Part shown: piece by piece, positions 2,922 through 14,395 of the stretch
Layout of the letters: each line of letters begins with the position of its first letter
Position numbering within the stretch: the stretch's first letter is position 1
Assembly: GCA_001798135.1 (NCBI GenBank)
Contig: MGRJ01000026.1
Coordinates: forward strand, 49,719-65,248
Reading direction: 5' to 3'
Length of the DNA: 15,530 nt
Source: Deltaproteobacteria bacterium RIFCSPHIGHO2_02_FULL_40_28
Lineage (GTDB): Bacteria > UBA10199 > 2-12-FULL-40-28
Notes under the pieces: model-generated
Databases searched by the model: none
What the model saw: the letters and a program-made list of their open reading frames with translations, nothing else
Told to the model about the DNA's origin: nothing
Position numbers and translations under genes: made by a program

Positions 2922-3746
2922 TTATTTATCCAATTTTTCCAGAAGCGTGTGAATCAATTTCTGATTCGTCTCAATAACCTCCCTGTATTGGTTTGTCTGA
3001 AAAGTGTGGCGGTATTTTTCGGGAAGAAATTTTTCCATGCTGATTGCCAGCGCTTTAGGATCCATTTCGGCAAGACGTTTTTTTAACGTCTGGACCGGCT
3101 TTTCCGTTCGATAATCCTCGAATTTTTTAATCAACAAATCAAAGTCAATTTGCGGATTAAAAATTTTTGTCAAGTACCACATATCCAAAAGATCCCTCTC
3201 CTTCATGTAGGATCTTCCAGCCAGGGCATTGATTTTATCGAGATAAAGTTCTTCGATGGATATAGAGAGAATTAAGGGTTGTACTTCCAGAAAAGGTTGT
3301 CTCCGTGTCACGGGGAGGGGTTTTGGTTGATAGGCTGGGTATTGACCAAACTCGAGTTTGACATGAATTTTTCCATGATACCCAGGAGGGGAGACGCGTA
3401 ACCACCAGGCAAAAATCCTCTTTTGCTTTGGCGGCCTGGCTTTCAGTTCGATATGAACAGGCCCCATGGAAAGCATGAGAAGATTTTTTGTTGTAGAAAG
3501 AGATTTTTCAACAGCCTTTCGAATCTGCTCATAGCTAGATTGATTGCCGGTAAAGTCCAAATCTTCGGAATAACGATAGCCCCCATGTAGCAGTCGAATC
3601 GCTGTGCCCCCATGAAAGATAATGTTTTCACTCTCCTTTTGGGAGTAGAGTCCTTCCAAAAAGGCGATTTGGATAATTTCAGCCGCGACGGTATGAAGCG
3701 GAAGGCTCTCCTCTGCGGCCATTTTTTTGATATCTTCCCAAGACAT
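2922..3746 (-). CDS. AbiEii/AbiGii-family nucleotidyltransferase (putative toxin)
   Basis: This 274-residue protein carries the nucleotidyltransferase signature near residues 43-66: FHGGTAIRLLHGGYRYSEDL followed by DF, i.e. GG-T then an ExDxD-type acidic pair that binds the catalytic metal. Further on, INALAGRSYMKERDLLDMWY matches the conserved helix of the AbiEii family that supports the active site. AbiEii toxins are NTP-using transferases; characterised relatives act on tRNA or other cellular targets and arrest growth, often as phage defence. It is the first gene of a two-gene minus-strand unit, with the AbiEi-like gene 11 bp downstream. The ribosome site is weak (GGAA shortly before the ATG). 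A sigma-70-like promoter lies just upstream. Housekeeping relatives of the family exist, so toxin activity is inferred from pairing. Confidence 0.85.
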   Translation of the reverse strand: MSWEDIKKMAAEESLPLHTVAAEIIQIAFLEGLYSQKESENIIFHGGTAIRLLHGGYRYSEDLDFTGNQSSYEQIRKAVEKSLSTTKNLLMLSMGPVHIELKARPPKQKRIFAWWLRVSPPGYHGKIHVKLEFGQYPAYQPKPLPVTRRQPFLEVQPLILSISIEELYLDKINALAGRSYMKERDLLDMWYLTKIFNPQIDFDLLIKKFEDYRTEKPVQTLKKRLAEMDPKALAISMEKFLPEKYRHTFQTNQYREVIETNQKLIHTLLEKLDK

Positions 3747-4000: not shown

Positions 4001-4046
4001 AATAAAAATAGTTAAGTAAAACAGGGCTTGATTGATTCATTAACCC

Positions 4047-4063
4047 GTCCGCCTTTGGCGGAC
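4047..4063 (+). promoter_or_regulatory. 5'-UTR hairpin before gvpA
   Basis: GTCCGCC-TTT-GGCGGAC forms a perfect 7-bp stem with a 3-nt loop in the gvpA leader, ending 6 nt before the AGGAGG ribosome site (4070-4075). Its core CCGCCTTTGGCGG recurs before gvpN (5447-5463). It could stabilise the transcript or modulate translation. It has no T-run after it, so it is not a standard terminator. Confidence 0.6.
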
Positions 4064-4081
4064 ATAAACAGGAGGTTTAGT

Positions 4082-4297
4082 ATGGCAGTACAAAAATCAA
4101 TGGCTAGTTCATCGCTAGCTGAAGTTATCGACCGAATCCTTGACAAAGGGATCGTCATCGATGCTTGGGCACGTCTCTCACTTGTAGGGATTGAATTTTT
4201 ATCCCTTGAAGCCAGAGTTGTTGTTTCTGGTGTCGAAACCTATTTAAAGTATGCCGAAGCGATTGGCTTAACAGCCACAGCCGCTCAACCCGCCTAG
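4082..4297 (+). CDS. gvpA: Gas vesicle major structural protein GvpA
   Basis: The 71-residue product is a near-textbook Gvp[19 protein letters not shown], then [18 protein letters not shown] and [14 protein letters not shown], with a short Ala-rich tail. GvpA self-assembles into the low-pitch rib helix of the gas-permeable, water-excluding vesicle wall; the alpha-beta-beta-alpha fold presents the hydrophobic strands to the gas side. The start at 4082 is chosen because AGGAGG lies 6 nt upstream and the N-terminus MAVQKS is family-typical; an in-frame ATG at 4028 would add 18 unrelated residues. It is the only canonical gvpA in the window and the first gene after the sigma-54 promoter. A strong hairpin follows it, which probably raises its transcript level over the downstream genes. 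Confidence 0.97.
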
Positions 4298-4428: not shown

Positions 4429-4983
4429 ATGTCTGTTCCAAATGAGATCAAACGTTTGACCGAAGAGGTGATAACCTCCTTCGATGCTGGTATTGGCGCT
4501 GTCGGACTCTTGATCGAAAAGGGTCTGGAGATCCTGGACGGCTATCGAAGGGAACAGGAGGCGGTGAACGGCTCGCTCCGCGATTCGCTCGCCTCGATTG
4601 TGAGTCTCCGCCATAAAGACTTTGATGAAGTGATGTCTCGAATCTTGAGCTTTCAGTCGAAGCGCGAGATTGAAATCAAGACCCTCATTAAGGGATTTCT
4701 AGCCGAACAGCGGGAGATTACAGGGAAGATCAAACGATCTCTTGAGGCTGGGATTTTTCAGGAGGTTGAGAAGGGAAAGAGGGAGTTGAAAAAGATGATT
4801 GATCAGGCAAAGGAAGGGATCCTTTCTTTTCAACAGGAACAGGAGAGAATCCGTGCCACCTTTGCCCAATTGGAGTCTCAAAAGGATAAACTCTCGGTCA
4901 TGGAGTTTAAGAAAGTAATTCAGGATCTCGAAGAGGAACTATTAGGAGAAAAACCGGCTGCTAGCATTCAGCAATCAGCCTGA
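4429..4983 (+). CDS. Coiled-coil protein of the gas vesicle operon (possible GvpC-like role)
   Basis: I do not recognise a named family for this 184-residue protein. It is highly charged and predicted to be almost wholly alpha-helical, with long Glu/Lys/Gln-rich heptad-like stretches (about 60-175) and no signal peptide or membrane segment. It contains an imperfect internal repeat: ILSFQ at 72-76 (followed by SKREIEIKTLIKGF) and at 131-135 (followed by QQEQERIRATF). Residues 6-20 (EIKRLTEEVITSFDA) match the start of the next protein, with SFDA at positions 17-20 in both, so the two look paralogous. Position right after gvpA, helical character and Phe-containing repeats recall GvpC, the outer-surface strengthening protein, but this is inference. 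An alternative is a scaffold or tethering factor. The ribosome site AAAGGA lies about 6 nt before the ATG. Confidence 0.85.
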   Translation: MSVPNEIKRLTEEVITSFDAGIGAVGLLIEKGLEILDGYRREQEAVNGSLRDSLASIVSLRHKDFDEVMSRILSFQSKREIEIKTLIKGFLAEQREITGKIKRSLEAGIFQEVEKGKRELKKMIDQAKEGILSFQQEQERIRATFAQLESQKDKLSVMEFKKVIQDLEEELLGEKPAASIQQSA

Positions 4984-5033
4984 AGGGCTTGAAGCTGAAT
5001 CGGGCGGTCATAACAGAAAGGAAGGTTAGGAAC

Positions 5034-5417
5034 ATGAGCTTTGCCGAAGAACTATCTAATCTGGGAAAAGAGATCAATGCATCGTTTGATGCAAGAGTCA
5101 ATTTTCTTGGAAAAAACATTACTGACGTTAAAAACATGCAATTAGATGCCAAAAAACTGATTAGTCATTTTTCAAAAGATCGCAAGGCCATGGGGCGCAA
5201 GCTTCGTGCAGACCTTGGCGGTTTTGTGGAAGACCTGACAGACACGGTGGATGGACTGAAGGCCAAGTTCCATAAGGAACAAAACGCCATACATCGCGAA
5301 TGCAAAGAAGCGCATTCTGCCTGGATGGGCGCCGCAAAAAGCATGACATCGAAAAGACGAAACTTTGGCGGGAACCTAACAAAGGCAAAACAAAAGGCAT
5401 CTCAAAAAAGTCATTAA
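5034..5417 (+). CDS. Small helical protein, paralog of the preceding one, putative GvpC-like
   Basis: The 127-residue product has a start region like its neighbour (EELSNLGKEINASFDA, SFDA at 17-20). It then has amphipathic helix with spaced Phe/Leu: HFSKDRKAMGRKLRADLGGF and LTDTVDGLKAKFHKEQNAI. The FHKE and repeated 'F + charged helix' pattern resembles the 33-residue repeats of cyanobacterial GvpC, which clamps GvpA ribs from outside. The C-terminus is strongly basic (Lys/Arg-rich, about 105-127). The start at 5034 is preferred, with AGGA 5 nt upstream; an in-frame ATG at 4989 would add 15 residues without a better ribosome site. It lies between the first coiled-coil gene and gvpN. No catalytic motif is seen. 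GvpC homology needs profile testing; confidence refers to it being a real gene. Confidence 0.82.
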   Translation: MSFAEELSNLGKEINASFDARVNFLGKNITDVKNMQLDAKKLISHFSKDRKAMGRKLRADLGGFVEDLTDTVDGLKAKFHKEQNAIHRECKEAHSAWMGAAKSMTSKRRNFGGNLTKAKQKASQKSH

Positions 5418-5485: not shown

Positions 5486-6454
5486 ATGACCACAAAAAGC
5501 TACGAAGTCAATGAAGGAACAGTCACTGTCGTACAACCCGTTGCCAGCAAAGATTTTATCGAAACCCCTTTTGTCAGGGATGTCATCGACCGGGCCATGC
5601 ATTATCTGAAGGCTGGTTTTCCGGTTCATTTAAGGGGCATTGCAGGCACTGGTAAAACCACCATGGCCCTTCGCCTTGCTGAATTTTTGGATAAACCAGT
5701 TGTTTGGCTTCAGGGGGATGAAGAACTTTCCACAACTCACCTGATCGGAGGCGATATTGGCTATCACCGAAGAAGCCTCCGCGACAACTTTATTTCCTCG
5801 GTTTTAAAAGTTGAGGAGGATGCTTCCAGGGAGTGGGTCGACAACCGGTTGACCCATGCCTGCCAGAATGGCTATACGCTTATCTATGATGAATTTACCC
5901 GTTCGCGCCCCGAAGCCAACAACGTTCTCCTTTCGGTTCTCCAAGAAGGGGTCTTGAACTTTCCGACAAGCCGGGGGAAGGGAGAGCAGGTTATCAGGGT
6001 GCATCCTGATTTTCACGCCATTTTTACCAGTAATCCAGAGGAATATGCCGGGGTACATCGATCCCAAGATGCGCTCAGGGATCGTCTGGTTACTCTTGAT
6101 CTTGAGTGCTTTGACCGTGAGACGGAGATGAGGATCACCCATAAAAAATCGGGGACTGCTCTTCCTGACGCGGCCAAGATTGTTGATATTGTCCGGAGTG
6201 TGCGGGAATCTGGGCAATACGAGTTTGCCCCAACTGTTCGTGGTTGTCTGATGATTGCCAAGGCGGTCCATGCCTACAAGGGGAAGGTAAAAATCCAAAA
6301 GACCGACCCCCTCTTCCGCCAGATTTGCCTGGATATTTTGACCTCCGAGACATCACGGATCGGTAGCAAAACAACGGCAAAAAAGGTGAAGGATATTGTG
6401 TTAAAGGCGATCAGCCAGTACTGCAAAAACGGAAATGGGAATGGGCATGGATGA
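5486..6454 (+). CDS. gvpN: Gas vesicle AAA+ ATPase GvpN
   Basis: This 322-residue MoxR-type AAA+ ATPase matches GvpN: Walker A GIAGTGKT (51-58), Walker B TLIYDEFTRS (131-140), sensor-1 region FTSNPEEYAGVH (180-191) and a downstream Arg-containing helix (DALRDRLVTLDLE). The phrase WLQGDEELSTTHLIGG after the P-loop domain start is family-typical. GvpN is needed for enlarging the initial bicones into full-size vesicles and is thought to act with GvpO or the growing GvpA shell, using ATP hydrolysis to remodel it. The C-terminus ends in a Gly/Asn/His-rich tail (GNGNGHG). It has a GGAGG ribosome site 5 nt upstream and follows a hairpin that may separate its expression from the structural genes. Confidence 0.96.
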   Translation: MTTKSYEVNEGTVTVVQPVASKDFIETPFVRDVIDRAMHYLKAGFPVHLRGIAGTGKTTMALRLAEFLDKPVVWLQGDEELSTTHLIGGDIGYHRRSLRDNFISSVLKVEEDASREWVDNRLTHACQNGYTLIYDEFTRSRPEANNVLLSVLQEGVLNFPTSRGKGEQVIRVHPDFHAIFTSNPEEYAGVHRSQDALRDRLVTLDLECFDRETEMRITHKKSGTALPDAAKIVDIVRSVRESGQYEFAPTVRGCLMIAKAVHAYKGKVKIQKTDPLFRQICLDILTSETSRIGSKTTAKKVKDIVLKAISQYCKNGNGNGHG

Positions 6455-6482
6455 TAATACAAGTATCAACGAAAGGAGCTGT

Positions 6483-6812
6483 ATGAATAGTTTAGGAAGA
6501 ATACAAAAGGGTTGCGCCTCGATCAAGGGGACATCACGCATCAGACATCTGGCATCCTTGGGTGGCGAGCTGGCCCACGAAGCCAACAGACTCTATATGC
6601 TGACGGTCAAGAGGGAAAGCTTGACGAATAAAAAACGCTCTCTTGAGAACAGGTTAAAGGAGATCAATCGGGTGTTAAAGGAGATTGAGGCGGAAACCGA
6701 TGTCAGCAACAAAAAATATATGCGTTTAAGTGGCAAGACCACCCCGCGGCAAAGTCGTTTAAAATCAGGTAATAGGGGCTCTTCCCTCAAGGCGTTCTCC
6801 ATGAAATATTAA
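6483..6812 (+). CDS. Small basic coiled-coil protein of the gas vesicle operon
   Basis: I do not recognise this 109-residue protein. The middle (about 40-75, including LTNKKRSLENRLKEINRVLK) is a clear heptad-type coiled coil, and the C-terminal third is basic and Ser/Gly/Arg-rich, probably disordered. No signal peptide, membrane segment or catalytic motif is visible. The start at 6483 is favoured by AAGGAG about 6 nt upstream; an in-frame ATG at 6435 would overlap gvpN without such a site. It lies 28 nt after gvpN and 14 nt before gvpH. Coiled coil with a basic tail could bind nucleic acid, the acidic shell proteins or another coiled-coil partner, but nothing in the sequence decides this. Confidence 0.82.
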   Translation: MNSLGRIQKGCASIKGTSRIRHLASLGGELAHEANRLYMLTVKRESLTNKKRSLENRLKEINRVLKEIEAETDVSNKKYMRLSGKTTPRQSRLKSGNRGSSLKAFSMKY

Positions 6813-6826
6813 AAGAGGAGTCATTT

Positions 6827-7420
6827 ATGGCTAAAAAAGATTCAACAAAAAAGGAAGACGAAAAACCAAAGGTTGACTTTGAGATTGGCGCCAAGGGGCT
6901 CCTCGGTGGGTTCTTTAAAGGGCTCGGAAGCTTAATCGATCTTGCCGATAAACTCGACAAGACGGGAGGAATTGAAAAAAGCGGTGAATTTGGAGTCAAG
7001 GGACAAAAGGATTTAACAGGGGTTTATGGTTTTTCCATCCGCTCCATGGCTGGACCTGGAGGGGTAGCACGTCCCGTGGTACGCCCTTTCGGGGACATTT
7101 CAAAGTTCAAAAGCGAAGTCCATCCGTCCCAAAAAGCACCTCCCAAGGGACCTGTTGTCGAAGAGACCACAGAGCCATTGACAGATCTTTTTGACGAAGG
7201 GGACTACCTCCGCATTGTGGCAGAGCTTCCCGGTGTGAATGAATCGGAAATTACCTGTGAGGTGCAAGGGGATGATGTAATCCAAATTACAACCAAGGGA
7301 AAAAGAAAATATTCCAAGGAGATTCTTCTTGAAAGCAAGATTGATCCGCAGTCGTTAGAAAAATCTTATGTCAATGGTGTCCTTGAACTCAAACTGAAGA
7401 AATCGGTGAGGGAAAAATGA
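6827..7420 (+). CDS. gvpH: Hsp20/alpha-crystallin-like gas vesicle protein GvpH
   Basis: The 197-residue protein has a Gly-rich N-terminal part (about 18-45, AKGLLGGFFKGLGSLIDLAD), a conserved linker (GVYGFSIRSM, 65-74; RPFGD, 86-90) and a C-terminal Hsp20 core (about 115-192) with LRIVAELPGVNESEI and the closing NGVLELKLKK. This layout is that of GvpH. Hsp20 proteins hold unfolding or aggregation-prone clients without ATP; haloarchaeal GvpH interacts with GvpA and other Gvp proteins, so here it probably keeps shell proteins soluble before assembly. The start has a GAGGAG site about 7 nt upstream. Its stop overlaps the ATG of the CDC48-type ATPase (ATGA, 7417-7420), which links the two chaperone-class proteins in expression. 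Confidence 0.9.
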   Translation: MAKKDSTKKEDEKPKVDFEIGAKGLLGGFFKGLGSLIDLADKLDKTGGIEKSGEFGVKGQKDLTGVYGFSIRSMAGPGGVARPVVRPFGDISKFKSEVHPSQKAPPKGPVVEETTEPLTDLFDEGDYLRIVAELPGVNESEITCEVQGDDVIQITTKGKRKYSKEILLESKIDPQSLEKSYVNGVLELKLKKSVREK

Positions 7421-9606
7421 TGCCTATGCGAAAAGAAAAAATAGCGGAAGGCTCCAAAGAGGCCCCTCTCGGGGGAAAATGGGTAACTCTTCGTGTTGGT
7501 GAAGCCCTCTCCAAGGATGTGGGGCGTGGTGTGGCACGGATCGACCCCGAAGAAATGAAAAAATTGGGAGTTAAAGTAGGAGAAGGGATCCATATTGAGG
7601 GGGAAAAAACCGTCGGCGCCAAGGTCATGCCAACCTTTTCAGACCACCGTGGTCGGGGGATTGTAGAGATTGACGGCATCCTGCGCGAAAATGCCAAGGT
7701 GAGCCTTGATCAAAAAGTCCGTGTGATTCGCGGCAGCTTTCCACCTGCCCAATCAGTAACGCTAAAGGCCCTTTCGCGATTGGGGGTTGTGGACCAATCG
7801 GGACAAACCCGCTATCTTGGCCGCATGGTTGAAGGGCTTCCGGTGGCCAAAGGAGACAAGGTACAGGTGGCCCTTTTTGGATCAAGAACCCGGCAATTTC
7901 ATGTGGTGCAAACTTTCCCTGAAGGGATTGTTTTGGTGACGCCGCAGACATCAATACGGATTGAGGAACCAAAAAATAAAGAGGCAGGAAAAGAAGAGGG
8001 AGAAGACAGCGCAACCATTTCTTACGAAGACATCGGTGGCCTTGGAAAAGAGATTCAACGTGTTCGCGAGATGATCGAACTCCCTTTTAAAAGCCCCCAA
8101 ATTTTTGAACGTCTGGGAATTGACCCTCCCAAGGGGGTTCTTTTGTACGGCCCTCCCGGCACCGGAAAAACACTTATCGCCCGCGCAGTCGCCCACGAAT
8201 CGGATGCCAATTTTTATACGATCAATGGCCCCGAGATCGTGCACAAGTTTTATGGAGAAAGTGAAGCTCATTTAAGATCAATTTTTGAAGAGGCTTCGAA
8301 AAATGCCCCGGCCATTATCTTTATTGATGAAATTGATTCAGTCGCTCCCAAGCGAGCCAATGTGCAGGGAGAAGTCGAAAAAAGAATTGTCGCGACACTT
8401 TTGAACCTGATGGACGGACTTAAGTCTCGCGGCGAGCTGATTGTGATTGGCGCAACCAACATGCCCGATCTCCTGGATCCAGCCCTACGACGTCCAGGTC
8501 GGTTTGACCGAGAGATTACCATTGGGATCCCCGATCGGAACGGTCGTTTGAAGATCCTCGAGATTCATACTCGCGGGATGCCTTTGGCCGAGGATGTCAG
8601 TTTAGAAAAACTTGCGAATATCACACACGGTTATGTCGGGGCCGATTTGGAGGCCTTGGCCCGAGAAGCGGCCATGATTTGCTTAAGAGAATCGATGGAA
8701 AAGGGGGATATTACCTTGGAGGAGGTTCCTTTTGAAGTTATCGAATTGCTGGAGGTAACTCACGCGCACTTTATGCAGGCGTTAAACGAGGTGGAACCGT
8801 CCGCTATCCGCGAGGTCTCCATTGAGACCCCGAACGTGCGGTGGTCTGACGTCGGAGGACTCGACGACGTGAAACGGATCTTGCGGGAGACAGTCGAATG
8901 GCCTCTCCGCTACGCAAAACTTTTTGAAAAGGCCAATTTCAAACCAACAAAAGGAATACTTCTGGGAGGCCCACCGGGCACAGGAAAGACCCTCTTGGCA
9001 AAGGCCCTGGCCACCGAGTCGGAGGTCAATTTTATTTCCATTAAGGGACCGGAACTCATTTCAAAATTTGTCGGGGAAAGCGAAAAAGGGATTAGAGAAG
9101 TGTTTAAGAAGGCAAAGTCCGCGGCCCCCTGTATTCTATTTTTTGACGAGATGGATTCTGTAGCCCCCAGGCGGGGTTCCGGTGAGGGAGATTCTGGGGT
9201 GATGGGCCGGACGATCAGCCAGTTTTTGACCGAACTCGATGGACTGGAGGAATTGCGTGGTGTGGTTATCTTGGGGGCAACCAATCGCATCGACCTGATC
9301 GATCCGGCCTTAATTCGCCCGGGGCGGTTTGATCACTTGATTGAATTGCCTTTGCCCGATCTGGTGGCCCGCAGGGAAATCTTCGGGATTCATACAAAGG
9401 GGGCTCCGATTGAAAAGGGGGTCGATTTTGAGGAACTGGCCCGTGCGTCGGAGGGAAAAAGTGGGGCTGAACTTGAGGCACTCTGCCGGCAGGCAGTAAG
9501 TCTCGCACTGCGTGAGTTTATTGACGATCACGGAACAAAAGCAAATGATAGGACCGACAAGTTCGTCGTCCGAAAAAAACATTTTAGCGAGGTGATGCAA
9601 AAATGA
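7417..9606 (+). CDS. CDC48/p97-type double AAA+ ATPase
   Basis: This 729-residue protein follows the CDC48/VAT plan. An N-terminal substrate-binding domain (about 15-185) has the CDC48_N double-psi-barrel signature ([20 protein letters not shown]). D1 has Walker A GPPGTGKT (245-252), Walker B IIFIDE (300-305) and [11 protein letters not shown]2 has Walker [10 protein letters not shown] (517-525), Walker B ILFFDE (573-578) and [15 protein letters not shown]. Both ATPase sites look intact. p97/CDC48 hexamers extract and unfold proteins by threading them through a central pore. In bacteria such N-D1-D2 proteins are uncommon. Placed between gvpH and four gvpF/L-type genes, it probably remodels gas vesicle assembly intermediates or dismantles misassembled shells (inference). 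D2 has GG in place of the usual YG before PPGTGKT, a minor change. Its stop overlaps the next ATG. Confidence 0.94.
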
Positions 9607-10616
9607 GTCTTTATCTCTACGGTATTATCGGACAGACAGAGGCGATTGATTTCGGGCCCATTGGATTTAAAGGGGGGAAGGTCATTTCTTTGCCCGCAGG
9701 AGAAATTGCCGCCGTTGTAGGTCCACCGCCTGCTGAGATCTTCGCAAAGTTGCACAAAGAGATCCTGATTGCCTTTCTTCTCGCCCATCAAAAGACGCTC
9801 GAACAGGTCATGAAGAAAAATTTTGTCCTGCCATTCAAATTTGGAACGATTCTGAAAAATGAATCGGAAATGATAGAAATTTTAAAAGAGGGAAGAAAAC
9901 CCCTGATTGATCTCATGGAGAGCATAAAAGAACGCACGGAAATCGATGTCATTGCAACATGGGAGGTGACCAGAATGCTTCAGGAGATTTCGGAAGAAGA
10001 TCCGGAGGTTTTAGTCCTGAAAAAGGAGATGGCGAAAGGGAATGCTGACCCTGTTTTGATCGGAATGTGTCTGGCAAAGGCTTTGAAAAAACGGGCGGAG
10101 GGGTGGCAAAAAAAGATCAAGGAGAAGCTTAAAGGCCATTCTGTCGCGTGTGCGGATCATGACCTGTTGAACGATACGATGATCCTCAACAGCTCTTTTC
10201 TCATCCACCATGATAAAGAAAGGGAGTTTAACCGGGCGCTGGAGGCGACCGATAGCGATTTTCAGAACAAGCTCCGCTTTAAATGTGTCGGGCCTCTTCC
10301 CCCTTACAGTTTTGCAACGGTGACCATCAAGCGGTTTGATCCCGAGGAGATTCGACGGTCTGCAAAGATTCTGGGGCTTAATGGCAAAGCAGAATTAACG
10401 TTTGTCAAAAAGGTTTACAAGGAACTTTCAAGACAGTGCCATCCTGATATGGATCCAAATCTTTCTGTACAGAAGTTTGAGGAACTCAATCGAGCCTATG
10501 AGCTTATTTTTGATTACTGCAAGGATAAACCCCGTTTTCTTTCGAGGGAAGCGGTCGAAGGATCTGTCAGGCTGGAAAGCGCCATACCACAAGGAGGGCT
10601 CTCTGATGCCGCATGA
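9603..10616 (+). CDS. GvpF/GvpL-family protein with C-terminal J domain
   Basis: The 337-residue product has two parts. Residues 1-243 are GvpF/L: an opening [21 protein letters not shown] (74-84), MILNSSFLI (193-201) and the family-ending CVGPLPPYSFATVTI (228-242). Residues about 246-312 form a DnaJ-type J domain: FDPEEIRRSAKILGLNGKAE, helix II KKVYKELSRQ, the HPD triad at 280-282 and helix III FEELNRAYELIF. The HPD motif is what stimulates Hsp70 ATPase, so this assembly protein probably recruits a host DnaK to nascent shells. GvpF/L proteins bind GvpA and are needed early in assembly; ordinary members are about 210-270 residues, so the extra length is due to the fusion. It overlaps the CDC48 gene by 4 bp (ATGA) and the next gvpF/L gene by 11 bp. 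The last 25 residues are unassigned. Confidence 0.93.
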   Translation: MSLYLYGIIGQTEAIDFGPIGFKGGKVISLPAGEIAAVVGPPPAEIFAKLHKEILIAFLLAHQKTLEQVMKKNFVLPFKFGTILKNESEMIEILKEGRKPLIDLMESIKERTEIDVIATWEVTRMLQEISEEDPEVLVLKKEMAKGNADPVLIGMCLAKALKKRAEGWQKKIKEKLKGHSVACADHDLLNDTMILNSSFLIHHDKEREFNRALEATDSDFQNKLRFKCVGPLPPYSFATVTIKRFDPEEIRRSAKILGLNGKAELTFVKKVYKELSRQCHPDMDPNLSVQKFEELNRAYELIFDYCKDKPRFLSREAVEGSVRLESAIPQGGLSDAA

Positions 10617-11364
10617 AGGAAAATATATCTACGGGATTATTGCAACGGAGGAGGCCCCTAATTTTGGCCCCATAGGCATTGGAGGAAAAAGGGATGAAGT
10701 CGTCACGATCGGTGTAAAGGGACTCGCCGCTGTTATTAGTAATTCTGCTCTCGATCATTACGCCGCCTCCCGTGAGAACCTTCAGGGACACACGAAAGTG
10801 ATCGAAAAGGTCTTTGAGAATTTTACCATTTTGCCGCTGCAGTTTTGTACCGTTGCAGAATCAACGGATGAAATTCTCAATTTCCTGGAAAAAAACAGAC
10901 GGGAACTTAACAATCATCTCAAGGATCTTGAAGGAAAGGTCGAGGTGGGGATCAAGATTATTTGGAAAAATATGAAGAAAATATTTGATGAAATTGCCCA
11001 GGAAAACAAGGTGATCCATAAACTTAAAGAAAAAGGGGTCAAAGGAGGGGGGCAGTCAGCCTTGATTCATGCCGGAGAGCTTGTGGAGGCTGCCTTGGAA
11101 GAAAAAAAGGCGGTTGAAGGGGAAGATTATTTAAGACCCTTAAAGAAAGGGCCGGTTACGTGCAAGGAAGGAGAAAAAAAAACAGAAGACATGGTGGTCA
11201 ATGCCTCGTTTCTTTTTAGCCATGATTGGATAAAGGAATTTGATGCTCGTGTAGAAAAACTGGGTGAAGAAAATGAGGCGAGGGTGCAAATTAAATACAT
11301 TGGGCCCATGCCACCATTTAGTTTTGTGAACCTAGAATTGCATTGGAATGGAGGAACAAGATGA
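10606..11364 (+). CDS. GvpF/GvpL-family assembly protein (second copy)
   Basis: The 252-residue protein has the full GvpF/L plan without an extra domain: KYIYGIIATEEAPNFGPIG at the start, ILPLQFCTVAES (75-86), DMVVNASFLFSHDWIKEFD (195-213) and the closing YIGPMPPFSFVNLELHW (231-247). GvpF/L proteins have an N-terminal alpha/beta domain that contacts GvpA and a C-terminal ferredoxin-like domain; they act at nucleation and sit at the gas-facing surface or tip. The start at 10606 is fixed by AAGGAGG (10591-10597) 8 nt upstream; an in-frame ATG at 10402 would overlap the J domain by 200 bp. The N-terminal GPIG block resembles copy one most (FGPIGF), pointing to tandem duplication. It overlaps both neighbours. 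Confidence 0.94.
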   Translation: MPHEGKYIYGIIATEEAPNFGPIGIGGKRDEVVTIGVKGLAAVISNSALDHYAASRENLQGHTKVIEKVFENFTILPLQFCTVAESTDEILNFLEKNRRELNNHLKDLEGKVEVGIKIIWKNMKKIFDEIAQENKVIHKLKEKGVKGGGQSALIHAGELVEAALEEKKAVEGEDYLRPLKKGPVTCKEGEKKTEDMVVNASFLFSHDWIKEFDARVEKLGEENEARVQIKYIGPMPPFSFVNLELHWNGGTR

Positions 11365-12149
11365 GTGATCCAATCGGATTATGGCTGTATTGCATTATTG
11401 AGAACCGAGGAGAAATGGCCTGGGACTGTCTTGGTATTCATGGGACTAGTCAGGTTGTAGCTATAGCTGGCGGAAAGTTCGCTGCCGTTGTCTCTGCCGA
11501 ACCGATAAAAAAATATCCCCTTGTCCGGGATTATCTCATAACCCACCAGAAGGTGAATGAAACCGTCATGCAAACCCATCGGGTTTTGCCGGTTAGATTT
11601 TGCACCATGGCGGAGAATAAAGAGAAGATTATTGACGAAGTTTTGGTGCCCAAGGAGAGTGAACTGCACGACAAACTTGCCGAGGTTGCAGGTAAAGAGG
11701 AATACGGTTTACGCGCCCGCTGGAAGGATCTCGATAAGGTTTTTAAAGAAATCGGCGAAACCAATGAGAAGGTACAGAAAAAGAAAAAGCTGATCCTGGA
11801 TCTTCCGGAGTCCAGTCGCCGGACTGAGCTGATTGATATTGGGCATCTGGTCCAAGAGGCTGTTCAGACCAAAAATGAAGAGACCGCCCGTACCTTGATG
11901 GATGAACTTTTTCCACTTGCCTGCGCATCGAAGAGAAACAAAAACCTGGGAGATGCCATGGTCCTGAATGCCTCTTTTTTGGTAAGAAAAGAACAAGTAC
12001 CCCATTTTGACAAGGCTGTTCAAACCCTCGATGCCCGGTACGGTGGGGATCTGCAATTTAAATATGTTGGACCTGTGCCGCCATTTAATTTTGTGGAGAT
12101 TGTGATCCAGTGGAAGGAGGAGGAACTCAAAAATGTTTCTATTGGATGA
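11361..12149 (+). CDS. GvpF/GvpL-family assembly protein (third copy)
   Basis: The 262-residue product begins SDPIGLWLYCIIENRG, carries RVLPVRFCTMAENKEKII in the middle, AMVLNASFLVRKEQVPHFD, and ends with YVGPVPPFNFVEIVIQW, so it is a complete GvpF/L protein. Between the domains is a charged helical insertion (about 120-160, EIGETNEKVQKKKKLILDLP). The start at 11361 has GGAGG 6 nt upstream and overlaps the preceding stop (ATGA); an in-frame ATG at 11343 is less likely. It overlaps gvpG by 17 bp and holds the gvpG ribosome site. Divergence from the other copies is well beyond a recent duplication, so it probably has a separate contact in the assembly complex. Confidence 0.93.
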   Translation: MSDPIGLWLYCIIENRGEMAWDCLGIHGTSQVVAIAGGKFAAVVSAEPIKKYPLVRDYLITHQKVNETVMQTHRVLPVRFCTMAENKEKIIDEVLVPKESELHDKLAEVAGKEEYGLRARWKDLDKVFKEIGETNEKVQKKKKLILDLPESSRRTELIDIGHLVQEAVQTKNEETARTLMDELFPLACASKRNKNLGDAMVLNASFLVRKEQVPHFDKAVQTLDARYGGDLQFKYVGPVPPFNFVEIVIQWKEEELKNVSIG

Positions 12150-12363
12150 CATTTTGCTTGCCCCCATCAAGGGGGTTAAATGGATCAGCGAAAAACTCCG
12201 GGACGTAGCGGACAAGGAGCTCTTTGATCCAGAGAAGATTCATGAGGAACTCATGACTCTTCAGGCGAAGCTTGATATGGGAGAGATGACCGAGGAAGAA
12301 TACGGGATTCGAGAAAAAGATCTTTTGGAGCGCTTAAGTGCGCTCCGTAAAAAGGAGGAATAG
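12133..12363 (+). CDS. gvpG: Gas vesicle protein GvpG
   Basis: The 76-residue product matches GvpG: a hydrophobic start with FLLDDILLAPIKGVKWISEK followed by a helical, acidic C-terminal part with EELMTLQAKLDMGEMTEEEY and LLERL. GvpG is a small accessory protein required for vesicle formation and interacts with GvpF/L and other minor proteins. It overlaps the third gvpF/L gene by 17 bp and uses a GGAGGAGGA ribosome site inside it. Its own tail holds the AAGGAGG site for gvpO, which starts 3 nt after its stop, so the three genes are tightly coupled. Confidence 0.93.
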   Translation: MFLLDDILLAPIKGVKWISEKLRDVADKELFDPEKIHEELMTLQAKLDMGEMTEEEYGIREKDLLERLSALRKKEE

Positions 12364-12366
12364 ACT

Positions 12367-12657
12367 ATGACGGCAATCCATGAGGTGCAGGCAAAGGTGA
12401 TTGAATTTTTTACCAAGGAGATGGGGAACGAGCGGGAGGCGATCCACTTGATCAAGCTCGGCAGATTGGAAGATGGATGGGAGGCCAAGGTTGAGGTAAC
12501 CGAACCCAACGAATACTTGAAGAAACTGGGTCATCCCTCAATCTTTGACCGGAACATCTACACTATCGGTCTCGATTCTGCGCTTGAGGTCACCGGCTAT
12601 GCTTTGTCCTCGTCAAGAGAACGAAGTTACGCCGAGACAGAGCGGGAGGAGATTTAG
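12367..12657 (+). CDS. gvpO: Gas vesicle protein GvpO
   Basis: The 96-residue protein shows the GvpO core, LEDGWEAKVEVTEPNEYLKK followed by IYTIGLDSALEVTGYAL (about 58-74), where the family has 'GW.V.VEV.E..R.P....D.lA.Y.V.lD..G....Y.R'. It is shorter than haloarchaeal GvpO because the acidic N-terminal extension is absent. GvpO is essential for gas vesicle formation in haloarchaea and affects gvp transcript or protein levels and assembly. The usual Arg in 'E..R.P' is replaced by N-E here. It begins 3 nt after gvpG and ends 2 nt before gvpJ. Confidence 0.9.
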   Translation: MTAIHEVQAKVIEFFTKEMGNEREAIHLIKLGRLEDGWEAKVEVTEPNEYLKKLGHPSIFDRNIYTIGLDSALEVTGYALSSSRERSYAETEREEI

Positions 12658-12659
12658 CC

Positions 12660-12893
12660 ATGCAACATTCAACTCAAGGGGAAAGCCTTGCAGACGTTGT
12701 TGAACGTGTACTTGACAAGGGGCTTGTTATCAATGCGGATATTGTGATTTCGCTTTGCAAGACCGAGCTTTTGTCGATCAAGCTTCGTGCGGCCATTGCC
12801 TCGTTTGAAACCGCCGCTAAGTGGGGACTTGCTTTTCCGTCAGATATGCGTATTGGGACGCCAGTGCCAATCAAAAGAGAACCCGCCGTATAA
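12660..12893 (+). CDS. gvpJ: Gas vesicle GvpA-family minor protein GvpJ
   Basis: The 77-residue product is a GvpA paralog of the J type: LADVVERVLDKGLVINADIV (10-29), then TELLSIKLRAAIASFETAAK (35-54) and WGLAFP, which matches GvpJ 'NADI..S...TELL...LRAAIASFETAA.YGL.FP' closely and differs from the '[11 protein letters not shown]' of GvpA. GvpJ is a minor shell component, thought to act at the tip or nucleation point and to influence vesicle shape. The C-terminus (SDMRIGTPVPIKREPAV) is short and basic. A GGAGGAG site lies in the end of gvpO. Confidence 0.93.
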   Translation: MQHSTQGESLADVVERVLDKGLVINADIVISLCKTELLSIKLRAAIASFETAAKWGLAFPSDMRIGTPVPIKREPAV

Positions 12894-12915: not shown

Positions 12916-13101
12916 ATGAAAGAAAAAGACAAAAAATCTAAAGAACCCGAGATAGCCAATGAAATCCTGGGAAAGATAGGCAAGGTTGTTCCCGGATTTG
13001 AAGGATTTTTTAAGAAGATGGAGGGATCAAAGACCTTTGGGTTTCGGATGAAGGAAATCCGAAAGGAAATAAACCGAAGATTTGGCGGAACCAAAAAATG
13101 A
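12916..13101 (+). CDS. 61-residue basic protein, possibly GvpH N-terminal-like
   Basis: The start at 12916 is set by AAGGAGG (12905-12911) 4-5 nt upstream; longer in-frame reading into gvpJ is unlikely. The protein is Lys/Glu-rich with a small hydrophobic centre: EILGKIGKVVPGFEGFFKK (16-34), FGFRMKEIRKEI (41-52) and a closing RRFGGTKK. The order 'IG..(L/V)(L/P)GF..FFK ... (Y/F)GF ... R.FG' also occurs in the N-terminal half of the GvpH protein at 6827-7420 (GGFFKGLG ... GVYGFSIRS ... RPFGD), so it may be a short form lacking the Hsp20 domain. That comparison is weak and by eye. Its stop overlaps the gvpK start (ATGA). The function is unknown, but the ribosome site and operon packing make it a real gene. 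Confidence 0.82.
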   Translation: MKEKDKKSKEPEIANEILGKIGKVVPGFEGFFKKMEGSKTFGFRMKEIRKEINRRFGGTKK

Positions 13102-13379
13102 AATTAGAAATCAATGACAAAGAGTTGAAGCACGGAGTGCTGGGGCTTGTTCTAGCTATTGTGGAAGTAATTCGCGACACGCTGAAAATTCAGTCAGTCA
13201 AAAGAATGGAGGGGGGAAGCTTGACAGAAGAACAGATTGAACGGTTAGGGAATGCCCTCTTGGAGTTAGACAAAGCAATTGACCAGATCAAAGAAGAACA
13301 AGGGGTCTCCGAGGCAGTTCGGTCCGTCCGCGACGGTTTGGATGACCTTGTGGATCAGATGATTCACATGGAGGCATAG
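13098..13379 (+). CDS. gvpK: Gas vesicle protein GvpK
   Basis: The 93-residue product matches GvpK: ELKHGVLGLVLAIVEVIRDT (9-28), KRMEGGSLTEEQIERLGNAL (35-54) and an acidic helical end with LDKAIDQIKEEQGV and LDDLVDQM. GvpK is a small accessory protein needed for vesicle formation in bacteria and found next to GvpL and minor GvpA paralogs, as here. It overlaps the 61-residue gene by 4 bp and has only a weak ribosome site (GGCGGA), so it probably depends on translational coupling. A GGAGG in its end serves the next gene. Confidence 0.93.
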   Translation: MKLEINDKELKHGVLGLVLAIVEVIRDTLKIQSVKRMEGGSLTEEQIERLGNALLELDKAIDQIKEEQGVSEAVRSVRDGLDDLVDQMIHMEA

Positions 13380-13382
13380 GAA

Positions 13383-14162
13383 ATGGCAGACAAAGGACTT
13401 TATCTCTATTGTGTAGCTCTTCCTTCGACAACGCTTCCTACTCAAAAGGAGGATCTGGGTATCAAGGGAATTGAGGGGAGGGATGTTTTTGTCTTCCAGA
13501 CCCCCACTCTCCTTGCTGTTGTTCAGGAGTGCGAACAATCTTACGGGTCCGATGACATGAAGACAGTTTCCCAGTGGATTTTAAGCCACCAAGCCGTGGT
13601 CGACCTTGCCTGGGAAAAATTCGATATGGTTGTCCCCTTTTCTTTTGGCACCGTGATTGTGGCCAAAGAGGGAAAATCAGCGCGTGAGAATCTTTTGGAT
13701 TGGCTGGAAAAAGAACAGGGAAATCTCAAATCCAAAGGAGAAAAACTCAAAGGGAAAGCTGAATATGGAATCCAAATAACCTGGGACCCGATGAAGGTGG
13801 CCCCACGTATTGTAAAGACTGATCAGGAGATTCAAAAACTGGAGAAGGAAATAGCCTCTAAATCAAGCGGGACGGCTTATTTGTTAAGGCAAAAACTAGA
13901 GGTTCTTGTCGGAAAAAGAATGGAACAGGCGGCCGATATTTATTTTAATGAGTTGTATCAAAAGATAAAACGGTGCGTTGAAGATATCCATGTTGAAAAG
14001 GTGAGAAAAGAGGAGCCGCCGCGACAAATGCTTATGAATCTCTCTTGTTTGCTCCCCAAGGGGGAAATGGACCCACTAGGAGAGGAACTCGATAAGATAG
14101 AAAAAATGGAGGGATTTTTTGTCCGATTTACCGGTCCCTGGCCCCCTTATAGTTTTGTGTAA
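13383..14162 (+). CDS. gvpL: GvpF/GvpL-family assembly protein (fourth copy)
   Basis: The 259-residue protein has the family features: GLYLYCVALPS at the start, VVPFSFGTVIVAKEGKSARE in the middle, MLMNLSCLLPKGEMDPL, and FTGPWPPYSFV at the very end. It stops directly after PPYSFV, lacking the last beta strand of about 10 residues that copies one to three carry (for example VNLELHW). A charged helical insertion (about 135-185, IQKLEKEIASKSSG) is longer than in the others. Separated from copies one to three by gvpG, O, J and K and next to gvpM, it occupies the position usual for gvpL; the symbol rests on context and similarity and is tentative. The last residues were checked in frame, and no obvious frameshift restores the missing strand. 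Confidence 0.9.
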   Translation: MADKGLYLYCVALPSTTLPTQKEDLGIKGIEGRDVFVFQTPTLLAVVQECEQSYGSDDMKTVSQWILSHQAVVDLAWEKFDMVVPFSFGTVIVAKEGKSARENLLDWLEKEQGNLKSKGEKLKGKAEYGIQITWDPMKVAPRIVKTDQEIQKLEKEIASKSSGTAYLLRQKLEVLVGKRMEQAADIYFNELYQKIKRCVEDIHVEKVRKEEPPRQMLMNLSCLLPKGEMDPLGEELDKIEKMEGFFVRFTGPWPPYSFV

Positions 14163-14164
14163 TC

Positions 14165-14395
14165 ATGGAACCAACACGAACAGGCAAAGCAACAATAGTA
14201 GATCTTTTGGACCGGGTCTTGGACAAGGGGCTTATCCTCAATGCGGATCTGGTCATCTCTCTGGCCGGCATTCCACTCATTGGTGTTTCACTTCGCACCG
14301 CCATTGCCGGTGTGGAAACAATGCAAAAATATGGCATGATGAAAGAGCTACTTCCCGTGCCCCTCCCTTCCCCAAGTGAACCAACCATAACATGA
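14165..14395 (+). CDS. gvpM: Gas vesicle GvpA-family minor protein, GvpM/GvpS type
   Basis: The 76-residue GvpA paralog has IVDLLDRVLDKGLILNADLV (11-30), then IPLIGVSLRTAIAGVETMQK (36-55) and YGMMKELL. The 'IPLIG.SLR.AIAG...TM..YG' pattern and the start MEPT fit GvpM (GvpS in Bacillus naming), not GvpA or GvpJ. GvpM is a minor, aggregation-prone shell protein needed at nucleation; in haloarchaea GvpF, GvpG, GvpH and GvpL contact it. It begins 2 nt after the fourth gvpF/L stop, lacks a ribosome site of its own, and is probably translated by re-initiation. It is the last gene of the operon. Confidence 0.92.
   Translation: MEPTRTGKATIVDLLDRVLDKGLILNADLVISLAGIPLIGVSLRTAIAGVETMQKYGMMKELLPVPLPSPSEPTIT

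Follow-up and report, generated by a model that had tools for sequence, protein, structure and literature searches.

We analysed a stretch of 15,530 nucleotides (hereafter the window) that lies at a contig end in a genome of 2.16 Mb and holds a gas-vesicle (gvp) cluster. The 5' part encodes, in this order, a sensor kinase, an NtrC-type regulator, GvpA, two coiled-coil-like open reading frames (ORFs), GvpN and a small ORF. The cluster continues with genes for an Hsp20 protein, a CDC48-type AAA ATPase, a GvpF/L protein with a C-terminal J domain (GvpF-J), two GvpF/L proteins, GvpG, a GvpO-like and a GvpJ-like protein, GvpK, a further GvpF/L protein and a GvpM-like protein (Table 1). The GvpA model begins at residue 19 of the listed gvpA ORF, and the true start of this gene is probably at about position 4082. 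The start codon of gvpF-J overlaps the stop codon of the CDC48-type gene (ATGA), and its 3' end overlaps the second GvpF/L gene. These two overlaps suggest that translation of the three genes is coupled.

Several further ORFs were observed in the window. The sensor kinase and the NtrC-type sigma-54 activator (2-2345) lie upstream of the cluster, and genes like them occur close to several further gvp clusters. On the minus strand, the interval from the NtrC gene to gvpA encodes an AbiEii-type toxin (2922-3746, Pfam E 6e-26) and, adjoining it, an unmatched ORF (2326-2910) that may be the antitoxin. The two coiled-coil-like ORFs between gvpA and gvpN (4429-4983 and 4989-5417) gave no Pfam match above cutoff, and homologs of both occupy the same position in many gvp clusters. 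The small ORF in the interval between gvpN and the Hsp20 gene (6435-6812) had no family match and is also present in the clusters of four relatives, L231, L234, L235 and L236.

Table 1. Coordinates of gvpF-J, its domains and the surrounding gas-vesicle genes in the window
Feature	Position	Strand	Evidence or remark
gvpA (listed ORF)	4028..4297	+	NCBIfam PRK09371 E 2e-37
gvpN AAA ATPase	5486..6454	+	TIGR02640 E 1e-98
Hsp20-type small heat-shock protein	6827..7420	+	Pfam HSP20 E 5e-5
CDC48/p97-type double AAA ATPase, directly upstream of gvpF-J	7417..9606	+	Pfam CDC48_N, CDC48_2, two AAA
GAGGTG, likely ribosome-binding site of gvpF-J	9589..9594	+	Sequence
gvpF-J (GvpF/L + C-terminal J domain)	9603..10616	+	337 aa; ORF, Pfam, AlphaFold2
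GvpL_GvpF domain, residues 3-238	9609..10316	+	Pfam E 4.9e-50; Foldseek 6l5d E 6.7e-16
J domain, residues 247-307	10341..10523	+	Pfam DnaJ E 2e-8; AlphaFold2
HPD motif, residues 280-282	10440..10448	+	Invariant in 71/71 aligned sequences (HPD-less L074 and L082 excluded)
Tail after J domain, residues 308-326	10524..10580	+	Conserved columns; short helix and strand in model
Second GvpF/L, without J domain	10606..11364	+	Pfam E 2e-53; 11-base overlap with gvpF-J end
Third GvpF/L, without J domain	11343..12149	+	Pfam E 2e-57
gvpG	12133..12363	+	Pfam E 1e-21
gvpO-like	12367..12657	+	Pfam E 0.0013, below cutoff
gvpJ-like minor shell protein	12660..12893	+	NCBIfam E 2.5e-27
gvpK	13098..13379	+	Pfam E 9.5e-18
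Fourth GvpF/L, without J domain	13383..14162	+	Pfam E 6e-55
gvpM-like	14165..14395	+	NCBIfam E 2.6e-23; dnaK after this gene in ten other clusters

The gvpF-J gene is a single frame with an ATG start and no internal stop. Its GvpL_GvpF match (PF06386) scored 171.3 bits against a cutoff of 23.6 and covered positions 2-244 of the 245-position profile, and the domain ends with the motif GPLPPYSF. The DnaJ family (PF00226) matched residues 255-304 with 34.7 bits (gathering cutoff 27.8), and the C-terminal part searched alone gave an E-value of 2.3e-9. Among PDB sequences, the GvpF proteins 4qsg (E 1.5e-16) and 6l5d (E 9.4e-16) were matched, as were the J domains 2lo1 and 4j7z (E about 5e-5). An AlphaFold2 model built from a 71-sequence alignment reached a mean pLDDT of 94.3 and placed J helices I, II and III at residues 247-256, 265-279 and 289-305, the last two being joined by the loop that contains the HPD. 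The original prediction of a full GvpF/L protein joined in one frame to a DnaJ-type domain, with the HPD at exactly residues 280-282 and recognisable helices II and III, is thereby borne out, and the model contains the J hairpin. Compared by Foldseek, the model resembled the GvpF structure 6l5d_B (TMt 0.82) and gave many local J-domain matches, including the DnaK-bound J domain 5nro_B, with probabilities of 0.99-1.00 and rmsd values mostly of 1.3-2.3 A over 50-60 residues. The E-values of these J-domain matches were weak (about 0.07-0.5), because the J domain makes up a small part of the query. Helix III is followed in the model by no more than a short helix (residues 315-319) and a strand (residues 322-326), and no canonical helix IV was seen. 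The family consensus of this tail is CSFxxExVxxxxxLVxV, the first part of which is also present in free-standing small J proteins. No Pfam match to the class A/B features, that is, a G/F-rich region, zinc fingers or the DnaJ C-terminal domain, was obtained for GvpF-J.

J domains normally activate the general chaperone Hsp70 (DnaK), and in known ones the HPD touches Hsp70 and is not part of the core. In the 71-sequence alignment, which excluded the HPD-less L074 and L082 although the J model still matched both, this motif is invariant, whereas the adjoining residues 277-279 are among the most variable positions of the J domain. Contact with Hsp70 is thus the expected source of selection on the HPD. 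Moreover, helix II is basic, with a net charge of +3 in the window protein and a mean of +1.6 across the 71 sequences. Three related Chloroflexota loci (L074, L082 and L098, which group together) have lost the HPD and retain a remnant of the domain, and despite this loss they keep a dnaK gene in the same gvp cluster. L098 has the most degraded J domain, and its DnaK carries Met at the position of E. coli R167, an arginine that contacts the HPD. In L074 and L082 the HPD is gone, yet the DnaK arginine is retained. As judged from these sequences, the J domain of this lineage cannot drive the in-cluster DnaK in the usual way.

We then considered the distribution of the fusion. It was found in 6 of 98 other genomes in a first search, and a scan of named genomes with an alignment query gave a GvpF ORF with a J-domain match at 77 of 80 loci, a figure that is no prevalence, since loci were sampled with the help of a motif from the fused subfamily. 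The Prosthecomicrobium locus (L096), additional to these 77, carries a diverged fusion that initially gave no J match and has the HPD. Altogether about 80 loci, spread over more than 20 phylum-level groups, share the fusion; isolates are among them, although many records are metagenome bins whose taxon assignment may be wrong. Record titles name Chloroflexota, Planctomycetota, Nitrospirota, Omnitrophota, Acidobacteriota, Desulfobacterota, Pseudomonadota and others. The distribution is confirmed by the isolates Ktedonobacter, Dictyobacter, Oscillochloris and Ancylobacter and by the complete plasmid pOA238_160 of Octadecabacter arcticus, which encodes the fusion in a gene annotated only as GvpL/GvpF. 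The suggestion that homologs might exist unannotated was therefore correct but understated: GvpF-J belongs to a widespread orthologous subfamily and is not a local oddity. Recurrence across genomes also led us to reject a chance J match. That two genes were joined by an artefact of assembly or annotation is refuted, since about 80 separate assemblies, isolates and the complete plasmid among them, show this joint; we assign that reading a negligible probability.

A cluster usually has a single GvpF with a J domain, accompanied by unfused GvpF/L genes. Among the matches listed for a 338-genome sample, strong GvpF matches came from 13 genomes with the fusion and 9 without, one of the latter having its match near a contig edge. 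Several plasmid-borne GvpF genes of Streptomyces and Nostoc lack the J domain, as do the solved GvpF proteins, and the J domain is thus not universally needed.

A quick tree was made from 140 GvpF domains without the J columns. All 40 fused proteins fell on one side of a single branch, and the fused label required one change, whereas shuffled labels needed a mean of 35. Of the 40, 39 formed a branch supported at 99%; the branch adding the last, a KSB1 sequence, had 44%. The tree is consistent with one origin, a single fusion being its simplest reading, and GvpF-J probably arose once. Free-standing J proteins of 95-132 aa (L180-L187, G255:C84:3929-4168, G137:C85:20100-20354 and G299:C13:34323-34559) have both the J domain and the SFxxExV segment in common with GvpF-J, and their C-terminus is of a conserved DWL type. 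Such proteins are a possible source of the fused module.

Some gvp clusters contain a dnaK gene of their own. A DnaK homolog follows gvpM on the same strand at ten loci (L028, where the end of the locus truncates it, L050, L061, L063, L067, L074, L082, L098, L224 and L234). The gap measures 4-75 bp wherever the start is clear, and 1.4 kb in L063. Where at least 1 kb was visible downstream, dnaK was present in 9 of 14 clusters ending K-F-M and in none of 32 others; this count includes L082, added by hand since the start of its open frame lies far upstream, and the split by gene order was chosen after seeing the data. The eight gvp-linked DnaKs placed in a tree form one clade (100/99) separate from the housekeeping DnaKs of the same genomes, an unlabelled row in this clade (L145) being the L063 gene listed twice. 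The L224 DnaK, outside the tree, has the gvp-linked DnaK of L074 as its best match. Another Hsp70 is encoded elsewhere in eight of the nine genomes with a gvp-linked DnaK, in one as fragments only, so the gvp-linked DnaK is a second paralog there. G011, the genome with the GvpF-J closest to that of the window (56%), has a canonical DnaK as its sole full-length one; the gene begins 75 bp after gvpM, and the adjoining ORFs showed neither grpE nor dnaJ. Most J-bearing gvp clusters, including that of the window, have no linked dnaK. The one full-length DnaK of the window genome (G000:C15) is encoded away from the gvp cluster and adjoins dnaJ.

In class C J proteins, a J domain carried on a client-binding protein serves to bring specific clients to Hsp70. 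In published work (PMC11445434, PMC9501494), a chaperone-like role has been proposed for GvpF as the primary and transient partner of GvpA, and GvpA binding has been published for other GvpF proteins. Together these points favour a hand-over of clients to DnaK, and we consider it likely that GvpF-J is a client-specific J protein of the class C type that passes GvpA-type shell proteins to DnaK. We infer client binding, DnaK stimulation and hand-over as follows. By analogy with GvpF elsewhere, the GvpF part would bind aggregation-prone shell proteins of the GvpA family. The HPD-bearing J domain would then engage DnaK, trigger ATP hydrolysis and pass the client to Hsp70, keeping it in solution until it is taken up into the shell by GvpG, GvpN and the remaining GvpF/L proteins. 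The partner would be the single full-length chromosomal DnaK in the window genome and the DnaK encoded in the gvp cluster in other lineages. The original prediction had proposed that the fusion tethers Hsp70 to the vesicle nucleation machinery. The link to Hsp70 has been strengthened by the invariance of the HPD, the tree consistent with a single fusion and the dnaK genes in gvp clusters, whereas the tether to nucleation is still an inference. Delivery of GvpA to DnaK fits the published GvpF data better than a role in nucleation only.

The main rival to such an assembly hand-over is a role in gas-vesicle disaggregation or recycling, in which Hsp20 would hold aggregated or collapsed shell protein, GvpF-J would recruit DnaK and the CDC48-type AAA protein would unravel the material, in parallel to the action of sHsp, DnaK-DnaJ and ClpB on general aggregates. 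The gene neighbourhood points in this direction: the CDC48-type gene is the nearest recognised upstream gene of GvpF-J in 35 of 48 loci, an Hsp20 homolog is present in 41 of the 48, the window has the overlapping order Hsp20-CDC48-GvpF-J, and in L074 a DnaK-Hsp20-CDC48 run follows gvpM. However, L050 and L061 have dnaK with no CDC48 in view, in others GvpN takes the upstream position instead, and GvpF acts early on GvpA in other organisms (PMC11445434). We regard disaggregation as rather unlikely to be the function, although GvpF-J may serve both roles together. A J domain that is a structural or dimerisation add-on devoid of Hsp70 function would suit the three loci that lost the HPD and kept a domain remnant, the lack of a recognisable canonical helix IV and the conservation of the tail as well. 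The invariance of the HPD in the 71 aligned sequences speaks against this reading, which also leaves the linkage of dnaK to gvp clusters unexplained, and we consider it very improbable.

Work on gas vesicles faces the question of what prevents the hydrophobic GvpA from aggregating and how this protein reaches the growing shell. GvpF was proposed as a GvpA chaperone without an energy source, and the architecture of GvpF-J points to Hsp70 for many bacteria. Indeed, the presence of GvpF-J in dozens of unrelated bacteria, some with a dnaK in the gvp cluster, suggests that many use Hsp70 for gas vesicles. We give about even odds to a wider reading, in which Hsp70 drives assembly across a large part of the bacterial phyla that make gas vesicles, and GvpF-J, joined in several lineages by a gvp-dedicated DnaK, constitutes a private Hsp70 system for a protein-only organelle. 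The HPD offers a point-mutation handle on the role of Hsp70 in gas-vesicle assembly, and GvpF-J offers a reason for the adjoining Hsp20 and AAA genes. For engineering, heterologous gvp clusters of the GvpF-J type may require a matching DnaK. In the parts of the open-access literature covered, we found no description of GvpF-J or of a gvp-linked DnaK.

In comparison with known systems, GvpF-J shares the complete GvpF fold with GvpF/GvpL proteins (PF06386; 4qsg of Microcystis, 6l5d of Anabaena) and also their location in gvp clusters, the window also encoding GvpA, GvpN, GvpG, GvpK, J/M-like proteins and three further GvpF/L proteins. The solved GvpF proteins are 250-253 aa long, none has a J domain, and they end where the J domain of GvpF-J starts. 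The free-standing small J proteins of about 95-130 aa (L180-L187) match the GvpF-J profile over about positions 249-329 (E 1e-17 to 1e-21) but are not fused to GvpF, and a DWL-type tail replaces the LVxV strand. Like class C (type III) J proteins, GvpF-J carries an HPD-bearing J domain on an unrelated client- or site-specific domain and lacks a G/F region and zinc fingers. Unlike them, it has its J domain at the C-terminus, no recognisable canonical helix IV and a conserved tail of its own; we know of no class C J protein with a gas-vesicle client-binding domain. An earlier report described an ArsA-like ATPase and the chaperone Hsp20 in gvp operons, and the relevant passages of that paper (PMC2963123) do not mention DnaJ or an Hsp70, unlike the GvpF-J and gvp-linked DnaK found here. 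Finally, gvp clusters resemble the sHsp, DnaK-DnaJ and ClpB pathway in bringing Hsp20, a J protein, an AAA+ ATPase and sometimes DnaK close together, but their AAA protein is of the CDC48 type rather than the ClpB type, and their J protein bears GvpF.
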